Positions 1 to 9,339 of a stretch of 31,221 nt of DNA are shown here, piece by piece (the first letter of the stretch is position 1; each line of letters starts with the position of its first letter). The notes under the pieces are model-generated. The model saw only the letters and a program-made list of their open reading frames with translations. It ran no database searches and was not told the DNA's origin. Source of the DNA: a virus; the IMG/VR virus record IMGVR_UViG_3300030382_002593, positions 1-31,221 of that record. One strand, 5' to 3'. The translations under genes were made by a program, and so were the position numbers.

Positions 1-89
1 CTTGCCACTCCGTAGTACACAGGTACTACAACAAAGTCGTAGATGCAGATGGTTAGATAAACTATTAACGCTGTCCAACGCCACTTCAT
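1..89 (-). CDS. Holin-like small membrane protein (N-terminal part, runs off the left edge)
   Basis: The reading frame opens at ATG (position 89), six bases after the stop of the preceding gene, and is still open at the window edge, so only 29 residues are seen. They begin MKWRWTALIV and continue as a strongly hydrophobic stretch with an acidic break (IYDFVVVPVYYG). The pattern of a hydrophobic helix followed by YDF and P-V-Y/W-Y-G resembles the first membrane segment of the three-helix holin family found in gene transfer agents and marine phages. Its place after tail-fibre genes and next to a small coiled-coil membrane protein fits a lysis cassette. The family call is from memory of the motif; with only 29 residues it remains tentative. 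Confidence 0.55.
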   Translation of the reverse strand, partial: MKWRWTALIVYLTICIYDFVVVPVYYGVA

Positions 90-94
90 ATTGC

Positions 95-283
95 TCAACC
101 AGCTCCGTCTTTAATATGTCTTATTAGTAAATATGCACCAATTGCCAAACCAGTTAATCCAAGACCTAATCCATAGCCTGCTATTTTCCTTGTCATACTT
201 TCACCTTTCTGCATTCTGTAAACTCTGTTCTTTAGGTCTTCTAACTGGTTGAGCAAAAAGCTGACATCGCTGTCTTTGCTCAT
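95..283 (-). CDS. Small coiled-coil plus transmembrane protein, XhlA/holin-accessory-like
   Basis: This is a 62-aa protein. Residues about 7-28 are charged and amphipathic with leucine spacing typical of a coiled coil, and residues about 34-55 are a Gly/Leu-rich membrane helix followed by a short basic tail. This layout matches haemolysin XhlA-type proteins, which work with holins in phage lysis. The start has a good AAGGA ribosome binding site. The next gene downstream looks like a holin, which supports a lysis role, but the sequence itself is low in information and a small virion membrane anchor is an alternative. Confidence 0.6.
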   Translation of the reverse strand: MSKDSDVSFLLNQLEDLKNRVYRMQKGESMTRKIAGYGLGLGLTGLAIGAYLLIRHIKDGAG

Positions 284-1700: not shown

Positions 1701-3284
1701 CTAATATGCAGGGACAGTAGTTGTGTCCAATTTGCCTGTATCAAGTTTCCAGAATTGAGTATATCCAGTATCCGCAGGGGATAATTTCCATGTCACCATA
1801 TGAGATTGCCCACCGTCTGTAATATTGTGATTAACTTCCTCAATGAAGAAATCCCCACTAACACCCAACTCTGCATTCCCTGTAGCAACCAAGGTGATTC
1901 GGTCTGATACATCCAACTCTATTGCCGCATCCATATTATTCTGGGAAATATTTGCGTTAAATGTCATTGTCATTACATTGATGGGGGTCGAGTACATTTG
2001 GATTTGATAATTGCACCAACTCTGAGCAATTGCCAATGTGGGAAAGAACGGTGTGTCAGCAGTAAATTTTCGCTCTCCATATTTGGTAACGCTGTCACTA
2101 TCACTTTGAGTTACAAGGGTATTATCTTTCAACAGAATGGGTGTCCCTCTTGCTTTTAGAGTTGTAAGCCATACCGTGCTAGGCAATCCTGACGTTGGGG
2201 AAATATAATCATTAGTGATAGCTATTCTCATTTGATTAGCAACTTTTGTCTGAGTAATTGTCATACTGCTAGAGGCATCCAAACCCCCTCCTGTATAAGC
2301 AGTATTGGCAATAATATCCACCCCTGATTGTGGGTCTAGCCAAGCGTCAACCCCAATAGCTTCAGGGTCAGCGGAAGTATTTGGATACTCTGCAATAAAT
2401 ACCTTTGTTTCCTCAGGAACTAATTTGGGACTATCTGCTCCAGTTTCAGGATATGTCCATAAATCAGGCTGACCTGTAACAAGATAATTTCGATAGGTTG
2501 CATCAAATCTATTGATAACAGTATCAAGAGGGTCTGTCTGTTCAAGTTGCATGTAAGTATGGGTGGCACTAACTGCATCGCTAAACGTGGCTTGAGAGGT
2601 AACGTATGAGCCTGAAAGCCTTGTGTTTCTTGATTCAAAAGAGATATAGCCATTAGCCATCTCTTTCACAAAACCATTTTCAGTTTCTTCAACAATTCTC
2701 AGGGCTGTAATCGTGTTCAATGAATCAGTCCACCATCGGTTCATGGTGGTCTGCCCTACAGCCAAATCTCTTTCAGATGCTCCCCATCCCGCATCATCAA
2801 GGATTTTACCAATGGCTTCATCAGTCCTAATATCTTCTTGCATTTCGGAAATTGGAACTAAATCATTGATATATCCCAATGGGCCAACTGCTGTTAAAAC
2901 AACCCGATTTAATCCTGTGCTTGAAGGTTCAGGAATTAAAGACTGTAACCTTCCTGTCCATTCGGGAACAGCCTCATCAGAGAAAGCAAAAGGAAACTCA
3001 TAGGGGAATTCTCCTGATGCTCCTGTTCCAAATCTTACAGGTCTGCCAACTTCAAGATTCCCTGCTAAAACAGATGCCGCATTTGATGGGGAATACTTAC
3101 CGCCTTCATTGTTTAAAACCGCTGTGAGTTTGCCCGCTGTAGAGTTCCCTGAAACCTGTGAGGCATAGTCTCTGCCACGCCGAAATTGAACGGTAAAAGT
3201 TTCACTAGAAACATTATCGTATGTTCCTACATAATCACCGTTATTTTCCCAATCAACTTCCAGTTGGTAGGTTGTCGTTACCAT
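1701..3284 (-). CDS. Large tail/baseplate protein
   Basis: About 527 aa. The start used is the ATG at 3284, with AGGT five bases ahead; a GTG directly before it (3287) is an alternative. The N-terminus (TYQLEVDWENNGDY, then QFRRGRDYASQ, STAGKLTAVLNN, GRPVRF) has the pattern seen in tail-tip proteins of siphophages that begin with a Dit-like or beta-sandwich domain. The rest is beta-rich and acidic. It follows the tape measure module and precedes the fibres, which is the expected place for a distal tail or adsorption-hub protein. The reading frame is intact. Confidence 0.65.
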   Translation of the reverse strand: MVTTTYQLEVDWENNGDYVGTYDNVSSETFTVQFRRGRDYASQVSGNSTAGKLTAVLNNEGGKYSPSNAASVLAGNLEVGRPVRFGTGASGEFPYEFPFAFSDEAVPEWTGRLQSLIPEPSSTGLNRVVLTAVGPLGYINDLVPISEMQEDIRTDEAIGKILDDAGWGASERDLAVGQTTMNRWWTDSLNTITALRIVEETENGFVKEMANGYISFESRNTRLSGSYVTSQATFSDAVSATHTYMQLEQTDPLDTVINRFDATYRNYLVTGQPDLWTYPETGADSPKLVPEETKVFIAEYPNTSADPEAIGVDAWLDPQSGVDIIANTAYTGGGLDASSSMTITQTKVANQMRIAITNDYISPTSGLPSTVWLTTLKARGTPILLKDNTLVTQSDSDSVTKYGERKFTADTPFFPTLAIAQSWCNYQIQMYSTPINVMTMTFNANISQNNMDAAIELDVSDRITLVATGNAELGVSGDFFIEEVNHNITDGGQSHMVTWKLSPADTGYTQFWKLDTGKLDTTTVPAY

Positions 3285-3435
3285 CACTTACCTCAGGGAC
3301 GGCTAAACCGTTATTCTCTATAAAGTCTTTCAATTCCTGTGCTTCACGCTCTGCCACTATTCTCCTGAGTTGCTCACTTGCAACAGGATTCTCTTGGCAT
3401 AATCGCTCGATATCTATTTGAATTATATTTCCCAT
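3253..3435 (-). CDS. Small hypothetical protein
   Basis: 60 aa, starting at the ATG that overlaps the previous stop (TAATG) with an AGAGG ribosome binding site; a longer form with nine more residues would be encoded inside the previous gene and is rejected. The sequence (GNIIQIDIERLC..., VAEREAQELKDFIE) is mainly helical with a charged middle. It overlaps the start of the large tail protein by about 30 bases, implying coupled translation. No family is recognised. Confidence 0.6.
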   Translation of the reverse strand: MGNIIQIDIERLCQENPVASEQLRRIVAEREAQELKDFIENNGLAVPEVSDGNDNLPTGS

Positions 3436-4016
3436 TATTCTACCTCTGGAATACGCCCCCAAACATCATCGATAATTACTTCTCTTTTTACATAATCCGC
3501 ATATACATAATGCCCTTCATGGGTTCGCAGGGTAACCTTTCCTGCCGCCAATGCGGAATTAAGTCCACGACGAGTCACCCTGTCAGCGTCACTAAGGTCT
3601 TCTTTTGAATCTTCAAGAGGGATTTCGCCACTGGCATGTCCTACAATAATTCTGCCTGTGTTCACAATAATTTGATTGGAGTGGTTAATTAAGTCATCTG
3701 TTACAGAATGCTTGTGTCCTTTTAACCGAATCGCAGACACTTCTTCTGCCGTTAATTCAACAGGGTCTTGGTTTATGTCATAACTAAGGTATAAGGCACT
3801 TCCATCAGAGCGTTTTTTTGTTGTTCCATCAACATTTCTAATGATTGTCCCACTTGGAGTATCGACCATTGTCATATCGGTATCAGGATATTTGTCATCT
3901 ACCCTGACATAATAATCATCAATGAAAGTGTTCCAAGCCGCTTCAACGGCTCTGCATTCTTCCATCGTGGGGTTTGTGTTGTCCGTATAATTACAGCACA
4001 CATGATTTACAGGCAT
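3435..4016 (-). CDS. Hypothetical tail-region structural protein
   Basis: 193 aa with an AGGAG ribosome binding site. The N-terminal part contains two adjacent cysteines (VCCNYTDN) and acidic loops. The middle holds LKGHKHSVTDD, a His-rich motif of the sort found at domain joints of phage fibres. The C-terminal part is mixed alpha/beta. The gene lies inside the tail gene block and is coupled to its downstream neighbour by TAATG. A virion role is inferred from context only. Confidence 0.65.
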   Translation of the reverse strand: MPVNHVCCNYTDNTNPTMEECRAVEAAWNTFIDDYYVRVDDKYPDTDMTMVDTPSGTIIRNVDGTTKKRSDGSALYLSYDINQDPVELTAEEVSAIRLKGHKHSVTDDLINHSNQIIVNTGRIIVGHASGEIPLEDSKEDLSDADRVTRRGLNSALAAGKVTLRTHEGHYVYADYVKREVIIDDVWGRIPEVE

Positions 4017-4782: not shown

Positions 4783-5673
4783 TTATTTGAAAGCCAAAGC
4801 CAAAGCATAATCGAACCCGCCACCGGCGGGAGTTGCCCATGATGGAGCCGCCCCTGCACCGCCTGAAGTTAGAACCTGTCCTGATGTTCCATAATTTGCA
4901 CCACCGATACCAAATTCCCCCTGAGAAGTCATGCGGAATTTCTCTGTTGCCGCTTCTGAATGTCCTGTTGAAAAAACAAGGTCTGTGGCATTGGAATCTG
5001 CCGCAAATGTACTCTGTGCTATTCCCTCAATCATTGCAGACACTAAAATCGCATCTGTTCCACCCGCCTCAAGAGGTGCTTGCCAACTGATTTTACCAAT
5101 AATATCAAGGGCATTAACATCTGTTAGAGCCGTTGTTAAAAGTAGCTTTCCTGTACTTGTTACAGCATCCGCTGATGCTCCTCTTAATTCCAACTGGTCT
5201 GAGGCTTGAGTCCATTCAAAATATGCCCCTGCGGATGCTCCAAAGAATTTAACATTGTGACCTGTATCGTCAACACCAACCGTTATGGTTCCCAAGACTG
5301 TCAACCCACCACTTGCCAAGGTCATCAAATCTGTGTCAGAAGTATGTCCAATATAAACGTCATTGATTATGACATTATCAACCGTCAGCGTTCCCAGAGT
5401 TCCAACCGTTGTAAGGGATGAAGTAACAACTCCTGACGCAAGCGTTGTCCCTGACAAGTCCCCCGCATCGACATCATCCCAAGAGGGAATTCCACCCGCA
5501 ACCTTTAAGACTTTTCCTGTAGCACCTATGCCAAGTCTTCGCAGTTGAGTAGCTGATTCTGCATAAATCGTGTCCCCTGTAGCCTGAGATTCGATAACGT
5601 GTCCACCGATTGCCTCATACTCTACTTGAGTTAAAGAAGTTCCAACTGATAAGTGTTTAAATTCGTTTGCCAT
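4783..5673 (-). CDS. Tail fibre / structural protein, low-complexity beta-rich
   Basis: 296 aa, start codon overlapping the tape measure stop (TAATG). The N-terminus has LRRLGIGATGKVLKVAGGIPSW, a linker repeat often found in phage and environmental virus fibres. The middle is built of short T/G/V-rich strands (TTVGTLGTLTVDNVIIN), and near the C-terminus a second linker (GTSGQVLTSGGAGAAPSW) repeats the first. This suggests a trimeric beta-prism fibre made of repeated modules. Placement directly after the tape measure fits a tail-tip structural role. Confidence 0.65.
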   Translation of the reverse strand: MANEFKHLSVGTSLTQVEYEAIGGHVIESQATGDTIYAESATQLRRLGIGATGKVLKVAGGIPSWDDVDAGDLSGTTLASGVVTSSLTTVGTLGTLTVDNVIINDVYIGHTSDTDLMTLASGGLTVLGTITVGVDDTGHNVKFFGASAGAYFEWTQASDQLELRGASADAVTSTGKLLLTTALTDVNALDIIGKISWQAPLEAGGTDAILVSAMIEGIAQSTFAADSNATDLVFSTGHSEAATEKFRMTSQGEFGIGGANYGTSGQVLTSGGAGAAPSWATPAGGGFDYALALAFK

Positions 5674-7610
5674 TAGTTAATAATCCTCTGGAATCCGCCT
5701 CTGCGAACTCCATCCTTAATAGCTTCTGCAACCTTATTTTCAAAGTCATCAAATCCATATGTATTGCCCATTATATTAATAGTTATCTTTGCACCCATGC
5801 CACTACCACCTTGCCCTAATGGTACAACAGCTTCAGGGCCAGACTCTCCAATCATGGCAAGAGTAGGACTGTTTACAATCCCACCTTTCGCAAGTCTTGG
5901 TATCTCAGGGAAGTTAAACCCAAACGAACCTCCACCTAACCAATCAGGCATATCAATTTTAATGGCATTGGCTAATTGCAGAACTGAATTAATCATTCCC
6001 ACAACACCGTTCACGATAGCCTTAAATCCTGAAAGAATTAAATCTGTGTCCCCTGTAAGTATTCCAACTAATATTTTCCACATCCCACTCCAAGCTTCAA
6101 TAAGTCCTGAGAAATATCCCTTAATAGCTTCAAAAACAGCACTGACTATATTCTTAAATTTATCCCATTTATCTCCCATTAGTCTGGACATAAATTCATC
6201 AAAGGGTTTCCAGAGATGTTCGACAAACATATCCCATGCTTTGCCAAGAAGTTCCATCGCCTTTGACATATGTTCTTTGAATCCGTCTATGTCACCCCTG
6301 AAAAGGTCAAATAATCCCCTGAAGATTTCTTTGATTGCTCCAATTGTGGTTTTGATAATTGCCTTCAAATATATCCAAGTAGGGCCAAATTGGTCTCTTA
6401 AAAAACTGTCTATCTTAAACAGAGTATCGGAGACAAATTCCATGATGGCATCAAAGTTCTTCCATATGAGAATTGCCGCAACTATCGCCGCAGTTATCCC
6501 GATAATAATTAATGCAACAGGATTAGCGGACATGACTAGATTAAAGGCCACTTGAATTGCTGTCCAAGCCTTTGTTGCCGCTGATGCAAGCATAGTAGAA
6601 CTTGCCATAGCCGCAATTCCGCTAATCATGGCAGGGAGCATAACAACAAATGGCCCCGCTGCAGATGCCATGCCCGCCAAGGGTTCTATAGCAAGTTTGG
6701 CTTTGTTCTTCATGATATCGAAACGCTCCCCTGCGGTCATCGTTCCTTCATTCATTCCGCTTAGAACATCTGTAGCCCCTGCAAGTTGGTTTGCCATTTC
6801 TTCAATATCAACAGCACCTTCTTGTATAGCAACCTTCATCCTCTGTGCCCCTTCAGCACCGAATAAATCAGTTGCCAAATTTAATGCTTCTGTTTCAGAA
6901 GTAGCGTTTTTAATGTCTTCCATACTTGAAAAGAGAGCAGACCTTAAATCAGTTACACCAGACTCTGCCAAACGCCTCATAGAGGCGTTAATTCCGGGCA
7001 TTACTCTTGTGATAGCAATACCCGCTCCTTCCAATTGACCAAAGAAAGCAGTTGCCTCATTGAAGTTCAAGCCAAGGTTTTTCATCACAGGCCCGAACTC
7101 TCTCATACTGTTAGAAAGTGCGTCCATTGGAACGCCAGTTTGCTGTGATGCCATTGCCAAGGAATCAAGAATTTGACCAGTCTCAGAAACATCTACACCG
7201 AATACTCCCATGGAATCCGAAACCGTCTTAATCATGGGTTCTACTTCAGTCCCCATGATTCGGGACATGTCGAGAAATTGCTTGGTGGTATTTTCTAAAT
7301 CGTCACCAGTTAATCCCATCTTGGTATTAACGTCAGCCAAAGCAGTTGAGACAGCACCCATGTCCTGAGGAACTCTTCCCGCTAAGTCACGGAATTCTTC
7401 CTTCAGGGCTTCAAGTTCTTTTCCTGTAGCACCAGTCCCTGCTTGGATATTTCGGGTAGCAGTTTGGAATTCATCCCCAATTTTTACAAGAGCAAGCCCA
7501 ACGCCTGCAACAGCGAGACTAACCCCTGCTACAGCTTTACTAACCTTTTGGAATTGCCCTTGAGCATTGCTTCCATCAGCATTAATTAATATGTCTACTG
7601 CATTAGCCAT
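5673..7610 (-). CDS. Tail tape measure protein
   Basis: 645 aa. It determines tail length and is packed inside the tail tube. Residues 1-60 are alanine-rich helix, residues about 60-260 match the TP901/PhageMin_Tail-type core (a GTGATGKELEALKEEF-like start, then GLNFNEATAFFGQLEGAG and LFGAEGAQRM), and residues about 310-385 are a long hydrophobic stretch that may cross the host membrane on DNA entry. A C-terminal Pro/Gly segment (SPTLAMIGESGPEAVVPL) is typical of such proteins. The gene follows the frameshifted chaperone pair, the normal siphophage order, and its start codon overlaps the stop of the frameshift extension. Confidence 0.93.
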   Translation of the reverse strand: MANAVDILINADGSNAQGQFQKVSKAVAGVSLAVAGVGLALVKIGDEFQTATRNIQAGTGATGKELEALKEEFRDLAGRVPQDMGAVSTALADVNTKMGLTGDDLENTTKQFLDMSRIMGTEVEPMIKTVSDSMGVFGVDVSETGQILDSLAMASQQTGVPMDALSNSMREFGPVMKNLGLNFNEATAFFGQLEGAGIAITRVMPGINASMRRLAESGVTDLRSALFSSMEDIKNATSETEALNLATDLFGAEGAQRMKVAIQEGAVDIEEMANQLAGATDVLSGMNEGTMTAGERFDIMKNKAKLAIEPLAGMASAAGPFVVMLPAMISGIAAMASSTMLASAATKAWTAIQVAFNLVMSANPVALIIIGITAAIVAAILIWKNFDAIMEFVSDTLFKIDSFLRDQFGPTWIYLKAIIKTTIGAIKEIFRGLFDLFRGDIDGFKEHMSKAMELLGKAWDMFVEHLWKPFDEFMSRLMGDKWDKFKNIVSAVFEAIKGYFSGLIEAWSGMWKILVGILTGDTDLILSGFKAIVNGVVGMINSVLQLANAIKIDMPDWLGGGSFGFNFPEIPRLAKGGIVNSPTLAMIGESGPEAVVPLGQGGSGMGAKITINIMGNTYGFDDFENKVAEAIKDGVRRGGFQRIIN

Positions 7611-8171
7611 TCTTGTCCTTGTCTATTCCGATATTTACTATATTCAACATTTTTAACAGGCTGACATCCTCCCCCACAAGAGCAGATGGAAGGCAACTGT
7701 ATCTTTGGCAGATACCGTCAATCATTTCAGCATTAATCAGAAGGGGTGGCTTGACGATTGGATTGCCCGCTCTGTCAGTCCCACCCCCTACAGATTTCCA
7801 CTTGAGAATTTCAGCCTCTAGGCTTCCCCCGCAGTTGCCGCATTCTCAGCCCAACTCTGAATCATGGCTGTGCAGATATTTGGAGGAAGTTCTAAAAAGC
7901 CAACTCCTGTAGAAGGTACAGGTTTGCCGTCCTCATCATGTAAATTCCACTCCAGAACAATCTCATCACCAAACTTCAGGAACATCATCTTCATGTCCTC
8001 TGCCGTATTAGTTTCTGAAACTACCTGAAACTCTAAAAACGTGGATATATTTACATCAAGTTTTACCCTGATTTCCAGACCGTGAAATTCATGGTCTTCA
8101 GGAAATGTAAGGTTAGCTTCCCTGCGTTGCAAGACAAACGGTTTTATCCCTGTTGTGTTCTTAACCACCAT
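7603..8171 (-). CDS. Tail assembly chaperone long form (GT-like), made by -1 frameshift
   Basis: If ribosomes slip back one base at GGGGGAA (7824-7830), translation continues for 74 codons to TAA at 7603-7605, giving about 189 aa. The extension frame has no stop over its full length and ends inside the tape measure start region (ATGGCTAA). Its translation (GSLEAEILKWKSVGGG..., INAEMIDGICQRYSCLPS, SLLKMLNIVNIG) is helical and looks like a genuine T domain, which in lambda-like tails binds the tape measure while G binds the tube protein. The extension cannot be reached without frameshifting: there is no suitable start codon or ribosome binding site. Confidence 0.82.
7818..8171 (-). CDS. Tail assembly chaperone short form (G-like)
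   Basis: 117 aa from the ATG that overlaps the tail tube stop (TAATG at 8171); longer in-frame starts lie inside the previous gene. The protein (MVVKNTTGIKPFVLQRREANL..., KLDVNISTFLEFQ) is acidic and of the size expected for the short tail chaperone located between tail tube and tape measure genes. The frame ends at TAG (7818) a few codons after a G5 run. Sequence similarity to a named G family is not asserted; the call rests on gene order and the frameshift layout. Confidence 0.8.
   Translation of the reverse strand: MVVKNTTGIKPFVLQRREANLTFPEDHEFHGLEIRVKLDVNISTFLEFQVVSETNTAEDMKMMFLKFGDEIVLEWNLHDEDGKPVPSTGVGFLELPPNICTAMIQSWAENAATAGEA
7824..7830 (-). other. Programmed -1 frameshift slippery site
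   Basis: On the minus strand the zero frame reads GCG GGG GAA GCC TAG. A one-base backward slip re-pairs the P-site glycine tRNA perfectly (GGG to GGG); the A-site re-pairing (GAA to GGA) is imperfect. The -1 frame has a TGA just upstream (within GGGCTGAGAATG), so slippage is confined to about 30 bases in which this G5 run is the only good site. It is not the textbook X-XXY-YYZ heptamer, but G-run variants are known in phage tail chaperone genes. Confidence 0.75.
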
Positions 8172-8590
8172 TAGGATGCCGTACCCCAAGTAGGAACAGT
8201 TCCACTCTGTAAAGGTAGAGAGACAGACCAAGTTAATGCTCCATCATTACCCCTTGAGAGGTTATATTCACTTACAAGGCATTCAGCTTCCAGTTCAGGG
8301 TAGCCAGTAGTGTTTCCACCAATTGCTATCGTGACTGTCCTTGTACCTGATTTTGTCTTAAAAACATCATGGGCTTTATTGGATGCAGAATCAAAAACGC
8401 CGCTTAAGGAAATAGTTAAATCTCCCAATCCAATAATTCTTTCCATAGCAGATTTACTAATGGAAGTGGCATCTAAGAGATTCTGCCCATCACCAATTTC
8501 ATAATTGGTAATATCGTCAGATAAATCCCTAGCCGTTCCGCCAGAATCATCCACCGCTATGTAATCACCCAATCCACTCTGTTTAGCCAT
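8171..8590 (-). CDS. Tail tube protein paralog 2
   Basis: 139 aa. The segment ATSISKSAMERIIGLGDLTISLSG-FDSASNKAHDVFKT aligns with VTPLNTLAMKRITGRSDGSLSI-YFDAGTNLSHSTFTS of the 242-aa neighbour, so the two genes are paralogs. The layout (short N-terminal beta segment, I/L-rich core, Y-N-L-S motif near the end) is that of siphophage major tail tube proteins. It lies directly before the chaperone pair. Of the two, this compact form is the better candidate for the main tube subunit; the other may be a decorated or minor form. Confidence 0.75.
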   Translation of the reverse strand: MAKQSGLGDYIAVDDSGGTARDLSDDITNYEIGDGQNLLDATSISKSAMERIIGLGDLTISLSGVFDSASNKAHDVFKTKSGTRTVTIAIGGNTTGYPELEAECLVSEYNLSRGNDGALTWSVSLPLQSGTVPTWGTAS

Positions 8591-8610: not shown

Positions 8611-9339
8611 TTAATACCTAACGAATCCTACTGCGATTGCCGCATTAGTAAATGTACCTGATGACTGAACCCTAATATATCTTCCAACCGAACCAGTCAT
8701 TTCAAGCCTTTCTGCCGTTGGAACATCTGATGTTCCAACAGTTGAAAACGTAATTAAATCAGTATAGGAAACATTGTCAGAACTCTCTTGAATTTTGACA
8801 ACTACACTTCCCGAATCCAAGGAAAGAAAATGAGCATATCCTGCCCCACCTGATGAAGATGAGGATGTATTATCTACCGCTGTTCCATCTGTTGCAGATG
8901 AATGCGTATCATCAAAGGCCGTGAGCATTTCCCCGAACTCTCCACCAACCCCTGCTGTAGCAGAAAAGGATGCGTTGGCTGTTATTGCTGAACCCGCTCC
9001 AGAGGTAACGTTATAATCAGATTCCATAGCAATCAGCCCTGCGAAATCAGAACCTACAGCAGAACCTAATGGTGCTGTAATGATTTGATTAGCTGTTGGA
9101 AGTTTTCCTGAGTTTGATGTAAAGGTTGAGTGAGACAAATTAGTTCCCGCATCAAAATAACAATTAATTGATAGGCTTCCATCAGACCTTCCTGTGATTC
9201 TTTTCATTGCTAGGGTATTTAATGGTGTTACATCAAGAGTTTCCTGAGTATAGCCCATTCCATCAAGAGCATTAGCGTCACCGCTAATATCTCGACCCAT
9301 TACAAAACATCTGACATTTAAACCACTTACTTTTGCCAT
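8611..9339 (-). CDS. Tail tube protein paralog 1 with extra C-terminal beta domain
   Basis: 242 aa, good TAGGAG ribosome binding site. Residues 1-125 resemble the tube fold of its 139-aa neighbour. After a Ser/Gly linker (NTSSSSSGGAGY, about residue 158) follows a separate domain of about 75 residues (HFLSLDSGSVVVKIQESSDNVSYTDL..., GRYIRVQSSGTFTNA) with the look of a discoidin- or Ig-like beta sandwich. Added C-terminal domains of this kind project from the tail surface in several siphophages. Having two tube genes side by side suggests a mixed tube or a main/minor pair. Confidence 0.75.
   Translation of the reverse strand: MAKVSGLNVRCFVMGRDISGDANALDGMGYTQETLDVTPLNTLAMKRITGRSDGSLSINCYFDAGTNLSHSTFTSNSGKLPTANQIITAPLGSAVGSDFAGLIAMESDYNVTSGAGSAITANASFSATAGVGGEFGEMLTAFDDTHSSATDGTAVDNTSSSSSGGAGYAHFLSLDSGSVVVKIQESSDNVSYTDLITFSTVGTSDVPTAERLEMTGSVGRYIRVQSSGTFTNAAIAVGFVRY

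Follow-up and report, generated by a model that had tools for sequence, protein, structure and literature searches.

A putative lambda G/GT-type tail chaperone locus with a GGGGGAA slip site and a conserved downstream RNA structure in a family of mostly uncultivated viruses

The tail assembly chaperones gpG and gpGT of phage lambda are products of programmed -1 frameshifting in a tail operon (Levin 1993; Xu 2004, 2013, 2014, via the account in PMC5009743). In that account, the genes follow the order major tail protein, G, T and tape measure, the -1 slip occurs near the 3' end of G, T ends at the tape-measure gene, and two products arise from one start, all of which have counterparts at the locus described here, the slip and the two products being predicted ones. 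On the other hand, this locus differs from lambda in lacking a family match, in its heptamer (GGGGGAA, against a site of the G_GGA_AAG type) and in the conserved 3' RNA structure that is predicted for it. The heptamer GGGGGAA has also been reported before. About a thousand SEA-PHAGES tail-chaperone sites, all of them GGGGGAA, make up the 'fivetwo' category of PRFect, and the G.U re-pairing at the middle position at this motif was already discussed in the same paper (PMC10885494). The motif was predicted in corynephage phi16 as well, together with a predicted 3' structure (PMC5506516). The heptamer and the kind of gene are identical in these cases and in the present one. They differ in that canonical heptamers take turns with GGGGGAA at the homologous position in the present family, and in that its 3' structure, for which there is comparative support, is a closing stem formed over a long range and not a pseudoknot inferred from a single sequence (PMC5506516). 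Among the stimulators of bacterial frameshifting, the branched structure of IS911 and the long-range structure of IS3411 were tested in those systems (PMC5009743); the present locus resembles them in having branched or long-range pairing 3' of the slippery site, and differs in that its stem is predicted, closes a loop of about 130 nt and belongs to a phage tail gene. While the lambda-like G/GT frameshift and the common use of GGGGGAA in phage tail chaperones are already known, the family itself, the exchange of heptamers at a homologous site and a long-range stem 3' of a tail-chaperone site, with support from comparison, are new here.

The window, i.e., the whole stretch of DNA that was analysed, is a virus record of 31,221 bases with 41% G+C, in which every gene of the tail operon lies on the minus strand. 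G and T are located between the major tail protein and tape measure genes on the same strand, and the relevant features are as follows.

8611..9339, minus strand: second major-tail-like protein (phrog_9522, 2.5e-27)
8171..8590, minus strand: major-tail-like protein directly upstream of G (phrog_10528, 8.5e-11)
7818..8171, minus strand: G, putative short tail assembly chaperone of 117 aa, from ATG at 8171 to TAG (open reading frame; AlphaFold2 model; VIA match)
7846..7848, minus strand: -1 frame stop TGA, boundary of the slip window in this genome
7824..7830, minus strand: slippery heptamer G_GGG_GAA (same place in homologs; known motif in PMC10885494)
7818..7820, minus strand: 0-frame stop TAG, one codon past the heptamer
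7804..7817, minus strand: 5' arm of the predicted stimulatory stem, AGGCUGAAAUUCUC, beginning 6 nt 3' of the heptamer
7658..7671, minus strand: 3' arm of the predicted stem, GAGGAUGUCAGCCU, 132 nt away, 13 of 14 positions paired
7603..7824, minus strand: T extension, -1 frame downstream of the slip, 73 codons and a TAA (protein-level conservation in the -1 frame only)
5673..7610, minus strand: tape measure protein, its start overlapping the end of T (phrog_991, 2e-64; PF10145)

The start codon of G and the stop codon of the preceding major-tail-like gene share bases in TAATG, and the open frame of this 117-codon gene reaches back to a TTG at 8231. The 0-frame junction reads GCG_GGG_GAA_GCC_TAG, and the stop at 7818 and the GGGGGAA site are both where the original prediction had placed them and as it had described them. 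The -1 frame is open over 80 codons (7845-7606) and then meets TAA (7605-7603) within ATGGCTAA, which contains the tape-measure start (ATG 7610-7608). An open -1 frame with this very ending had been claimed and is confirmed, its length being 73 codons after the slip instead of the 74 given; the predicted G-T fusion has 189 aa. The slip window, put earlier at about 30 bases, is the 28 nt that are open in both frames. A -1 stop just upstream had been said to restrict slippage, which holds in the window (TGA 7848-7846) and is not a conserved feature, as the -1 frame of several relatives (L012, L025, L029 and others) is open much further back.

The conservation of this arrangement was examined in related viral sequences. 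A first search yielded 12 relatives (56-95% identity), in all of which the -1 frame is open with GGGGGAA at the same place, replaced by GGGAAAA in one, and profile searches with G and with T extended the set to more than 300 related stretches. T lies in the -1 frame in 228 of the 229 related viral loci that carry both parts. Homologs with a closed extension, named in advance as the observation that would count against the reading, were sought among these loci, and the lone exception is L210 (1018-1630), where T follows a stop in the frame of G; the sequence between the two parts looks shifted, and this case is probably an indel or an assembly error. The differences from close homologs concentrate on the third codon position of the -1 frame (in L005, for instance, 6, 1 and 18 at positions 1, 2 and 3). 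Judged from such substitutions, the extension is evolving as a protein in the -1 frame under protein-level selection, and the proposal of a T domain is supported by an open -1 frame and purifying selection in all close homologs. The L210 contig, with its different relation of T to G, is what might be expected if the extension were a decayed or sequencing-split gene, i.e., an ancestral in-frame G-T broken by an indel. This explanation has next to no probability and is already refuted by conservation, since all other loci, which come from many assemblies, and a cultured phage share the -1 relation and have a slippery heptamer without exception, and both frames are protein-constrained.

Removal of duplicate junctions left 92 distinct ones, each with a slippery heptamer in register at the homologous place (92/92): GGGGGAA in 62, CCCTTTA in 13, GGGAAAA in nine, CCCTTTG in four, AAAAAAA in three and CCCAAAA in one. 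In-frame slippery heptamers arise by chance at a rate of 0.0067 per codon in the window's genes, or about 0.05 in an overlap of this size, so a heptamer at all 92 junctions is not a chance feature. Chance matches are likelier in the CCCTTT, CCCAAAA and AAAAAAA clades, where overlaps are longer, and yet the same heptamer recurs there at the same place. The heptamer turns over among GGGGGAA, GGGAAAA, CCCTTTA/G, CCCAAAA and AAAAAAA while the frame relation stays constant, and the canonical GGGAAAA occupies the homologous site in L011, L028, L039, L043, L183 and Streptomyces phage Dagobah. GGGGGAA does not follow the X_XXY_YYZ rule, in which XXX and YYY are each identical, and the original prediction was right to call it non-standard in this sense. 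It is not an exotic site, since it recurs in phages, and its position in register in a tail-chaperone overlap is that of the 'fivetwo' class (PMC10885494).

A mixed product could also come from transcriptional slippage at the G run, which would likewise yield both products from one gene and could fit the A runs (AAAAAAA) of a few relatives. Presence of CCCTTTA and GGGAAAA in other relatives favours tandem tRNA slippage in the -1 direction, and a G5 run is short for slippage by the polymerase, so that this source of the mixture is extremely unlikely.

Only one relative could be found among 50,697 phage records, the cultured Streptomyces phage Dagobah, and two scans of bacterial and archaeal genomes detected no prophage or host. 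In Dagobah, the T part (44% identity) is in the -1 frame from a GGGAAAA onwards, inside HUN42_00022 (MT711977.1, L072, locus 3172-3716), and its G part is a weak match (23.5%, E 0.6). The heptamer is canonical in this phage, and HUN42_00022 and HUN42_00023 are annotated as two hypothetical proteins without a frameshift. Such a record, listing T as a CDS of its own, raises the alternative that T is a separate small protein made from its own start, by re-initiation after the TAG or from an internal ATG, without any fusion. An 81-aa T-like entry in BFVD would agree with it, as would an AGAGG just past the TAG that is followed by an ATT or ATC codon in most of the clade. Initiation of a standalone T at this ATT was weighed and discarded, because the sister clades lack AGAGG, the T frame has no conserved ATG, GTG or TTG ahead of the conserved domain, and homologs have Leu, Val or Ile codons where the window has its sole early ATG. 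Moreover, the heptamer at 92 of 92 junctions and the conservation of its codons would have no reason if T were made separately, which leaves this possibility very unlikely.

With regard to the proteins themselves, neither G nor T matched a family above threshold in Pfam, NCBIfam or PHROGs; profile searches of both against PDB sequences gave nothing useful. The AlphaFold2 model of G, built with 28 family members (pLDDT 84.7), was compared with known structures by VIA-align, in which the HK97 tail assembly chaperone 2ob9 came first (Z 5.2, a value too low to exclude a common arrangement; 92 residues, rmsd 4.7, 10% identity), tied with 5ir0. Several viral models named tail assembly chaperone were also among the matches, and a Foldseek search of the same model against PDB returned none. 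The modelled fold of G may thus suggest a resemblance to the HK97 chaperone, the match being modest. The T model is a small helical domain (pLDDT 80.8) with a sole match, one unnamed entry that is 65% identical. This is a tail-chaperone family that is not covered by Pfam, NCBIfam or PHROGs, and its members are mostly uncultivated viruses.

A conserved RNA structure, overlooked in the original prediction, is present 6 nt past the heptamer. In RNA numbering (+0 being the first base of the heptamer), codon choice is over-conserved in two blocks, one from the heptamer to about +26, beyond the 0-frame stop, and the other from +162 to +190; conservation of the heptamer codons is position-specific (1.0 versus 0.25-0.50 expected). 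The two synonymously suppressed blocks are complementary, AGGCUGACAUUCUC at +13..26 pairing with GAGGAUGUCAGCCU at +159..172, and this helix ranks best of all possible helices in an alignment of 20 sequences. As a control, codon columns that share an amino acid were exchanged with one another at random, so that the protein and the relatedness of the sequences are preserved, and an equal helix appeared anywhere in only 7, 3, 1 and 1 of 2000 permutations for lengths of 7, 10, 12 and 14, respectively. In 15 further distinct sequences that were not used in discovery, the same helix was best at lengths 10 (2/1000) and 14 (6/1000), and at length 7 the best helix was a shifted register of that stem (45/1000). 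The mean folding energy of the window clade over +7..200 is below that of all 100 permuted sets (z -6.7), while the upstream control within G is not significant (z -1.0). In the window itself, the first seven pairs of the stem (7817-7804 with 7671-7658) have pairing probabilities of 0.89 to 1.0, and the form taken by the clade is mostly a stem of 13-14 bp that closes a branched loop of about 130 nt.

A different form is found in the sister clade whose 0-frame stop lies 15 nt past the heptamer, where a bulged hairpin has nearly the same starting point. An excess of stability is seen over +7..60 (z -4.2, 0/200) and not in the next two windows; the upstream control of this clade is itself mildly structured (z -2.6). 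The hairpin, from about +7 to +60 after GGGGGAA, has a mean of about -24 kcal/mol and an inner GCC/GGC stem, and is a good candidate for a compact stimulator as judged from its predicted fold; the clade comprises L114, L119-L121, L130-L148 and L192-L230. By contrast with these two clades, the CCCTTTA clade gave no significant helix. RNAalifold on the first 130 nt returned almost nothing, because the partner arm lies beyond +158. A short hairpin just past the window heptamer, GCC-UAGA-GGC, was also considered and rejected, as it is broken in L005, L009, L011 and others.

Several features bear on how strictly the long stem is kept. Compensatory double changes are few, with one in the 20 sequences and a few more in 39 (L183, L221, L226), and the changed 5' arms of L031, L036, L039 and L043 face the same partner without a compensating change. 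Among the 39 sequences of the window clade, whose 0-frame stop is 3 nt past the heptamer, 12 have a long stem with almost no pairing probability or absent from the minimum-energy fold, and the stem is weak in L041 and L122. Alternative stems starting at +14 or +15 are formed in several sequences that lack the long one, locally in L031 and L149, with +151..158 in L177 and with +120..127 in L226; in L043 and L179 the alternative stem includes +14/+15, has extra pairs before it and uses +151..158 as partner. These folds fit, post hoc, a constraint on where the stem starts and not on its partner.

Such variation raises the question of whether the frameshift is real and the downstream structure serves tape-measure translation or mRNA stability instead of slippage. 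The 3' arm lies about 50-60 nt ahead of the tape-measure start, the minimum-energy fold of about one third of the 39 sequences does not contain the exact long stem, and GGGGGAA could suffice alone. On the other side, the stem starts 6 nt past the heptamer, which is the usual stimulator spacing, the excess structure of the sister clade is restricted to the 53 nt directly past the heptamer, and several sequences without the long stem fold another one from +14 or +15. A role other than slippage is therefore considered rather unlikely. With its 6-nt spacer and a conservation beyond coding need, the 3' structure, as predicted from the aligned sequences, is of the kind expected of a stimulator and would act as one. 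Regarding its evolution, the balance tilts slightly towards a model in which frameshifting in the window clade is set by the long-range stem closing the branched loop of about 130 nt, and related clades use a local hairpin in its stead, again 6 nt from a heptamer that turns over as well, so that the level of frameshifting would be conserved and its parts interchangeable. An upstream Shine-Dalgarno-like stimulator was also looked for, and none was consistent.

Taken as a whole, the locus is very probably a lambda G/GT-type tail chaperone gene in which a -1 slip yields a G-T fusion with the help of the RNA structure. The original prediction had proposed the G/GT reading, and it is strongly supported by the gene order, the conserved frames, the heptamer at every distinct junction, the RNA structure and, modestly, the predicted fold of G. 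According to the proposed mechanism, the majority of ribosomes would translate G (117 aa) and terminate at the TAG. A minority would be held up, with GGG occupying the P site and GAA the A site, by the folded RNA 6 nt further on, which is proposed to block the mRNA entrance, and would move back by one base. The tRNA-Gly would then re-pair perfectly from GGG to GGG, and the tRNA-Glu would re-pair imperfectly to GGA, with G.U at the middle position; alternatively, the slip might precede fixation of the Glu-tRNA, GGA then being read as Gly. A tandem slip would leave ...AGES... at the junction and a P-site-only slip ...AGGS.... The shifted ribosomes would add 73 codons, giving the 189-aa G-T and stopping inside the tape-measure start. 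Slippage, its efficiency and the effect of the stimulator are inferred. If lambda is a guide, the tape measure would be coated by many copies of G and few of G-T, T would recruit the major tail protein, and both G and G-T would leave before the virion is completed.

These observations point to a large tail-chaperone family that annotation has missed, T being either passed over or listed as a hypothetical protein in its own right. With about 90 distinct natural junctions, one can ask which slippery heptamers, and which RNA structures 3' of them, may stand in for one another. The exchange of GGGGGAA and GGGAAAA at a single homologous position provides comparative evidence that GGGGGAA is a real -1 site despite its imperfect A-site re-pairing, and the conserved stem opens a direct test of long-range RNA stimulators in phage tail chaperones.

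In addition, several minor features were observed. The relatives with CCCTTTA or CCCTTTG are L049, L050, L113, L116-L118, L128-L131 and L146-L152, and the 0-frame stop of the CCCTTT clade lies mostly 27-63 nt downstream, which gives unshifted G a longer C-terminal tail. Further in-frame GGGGGAA motifs occur inside genes on the minus strand of the window (first base at 4921, 14390 and 22588) and are presumed to be due to chance. The major-tail-like genes at 8171-8590 and 8611-9339 (minus strand) are neighbours of unequal length that both match phrog_9522 and phrog_10528, and their presence side by side suggests a duplicated or two-subunit tail tube.
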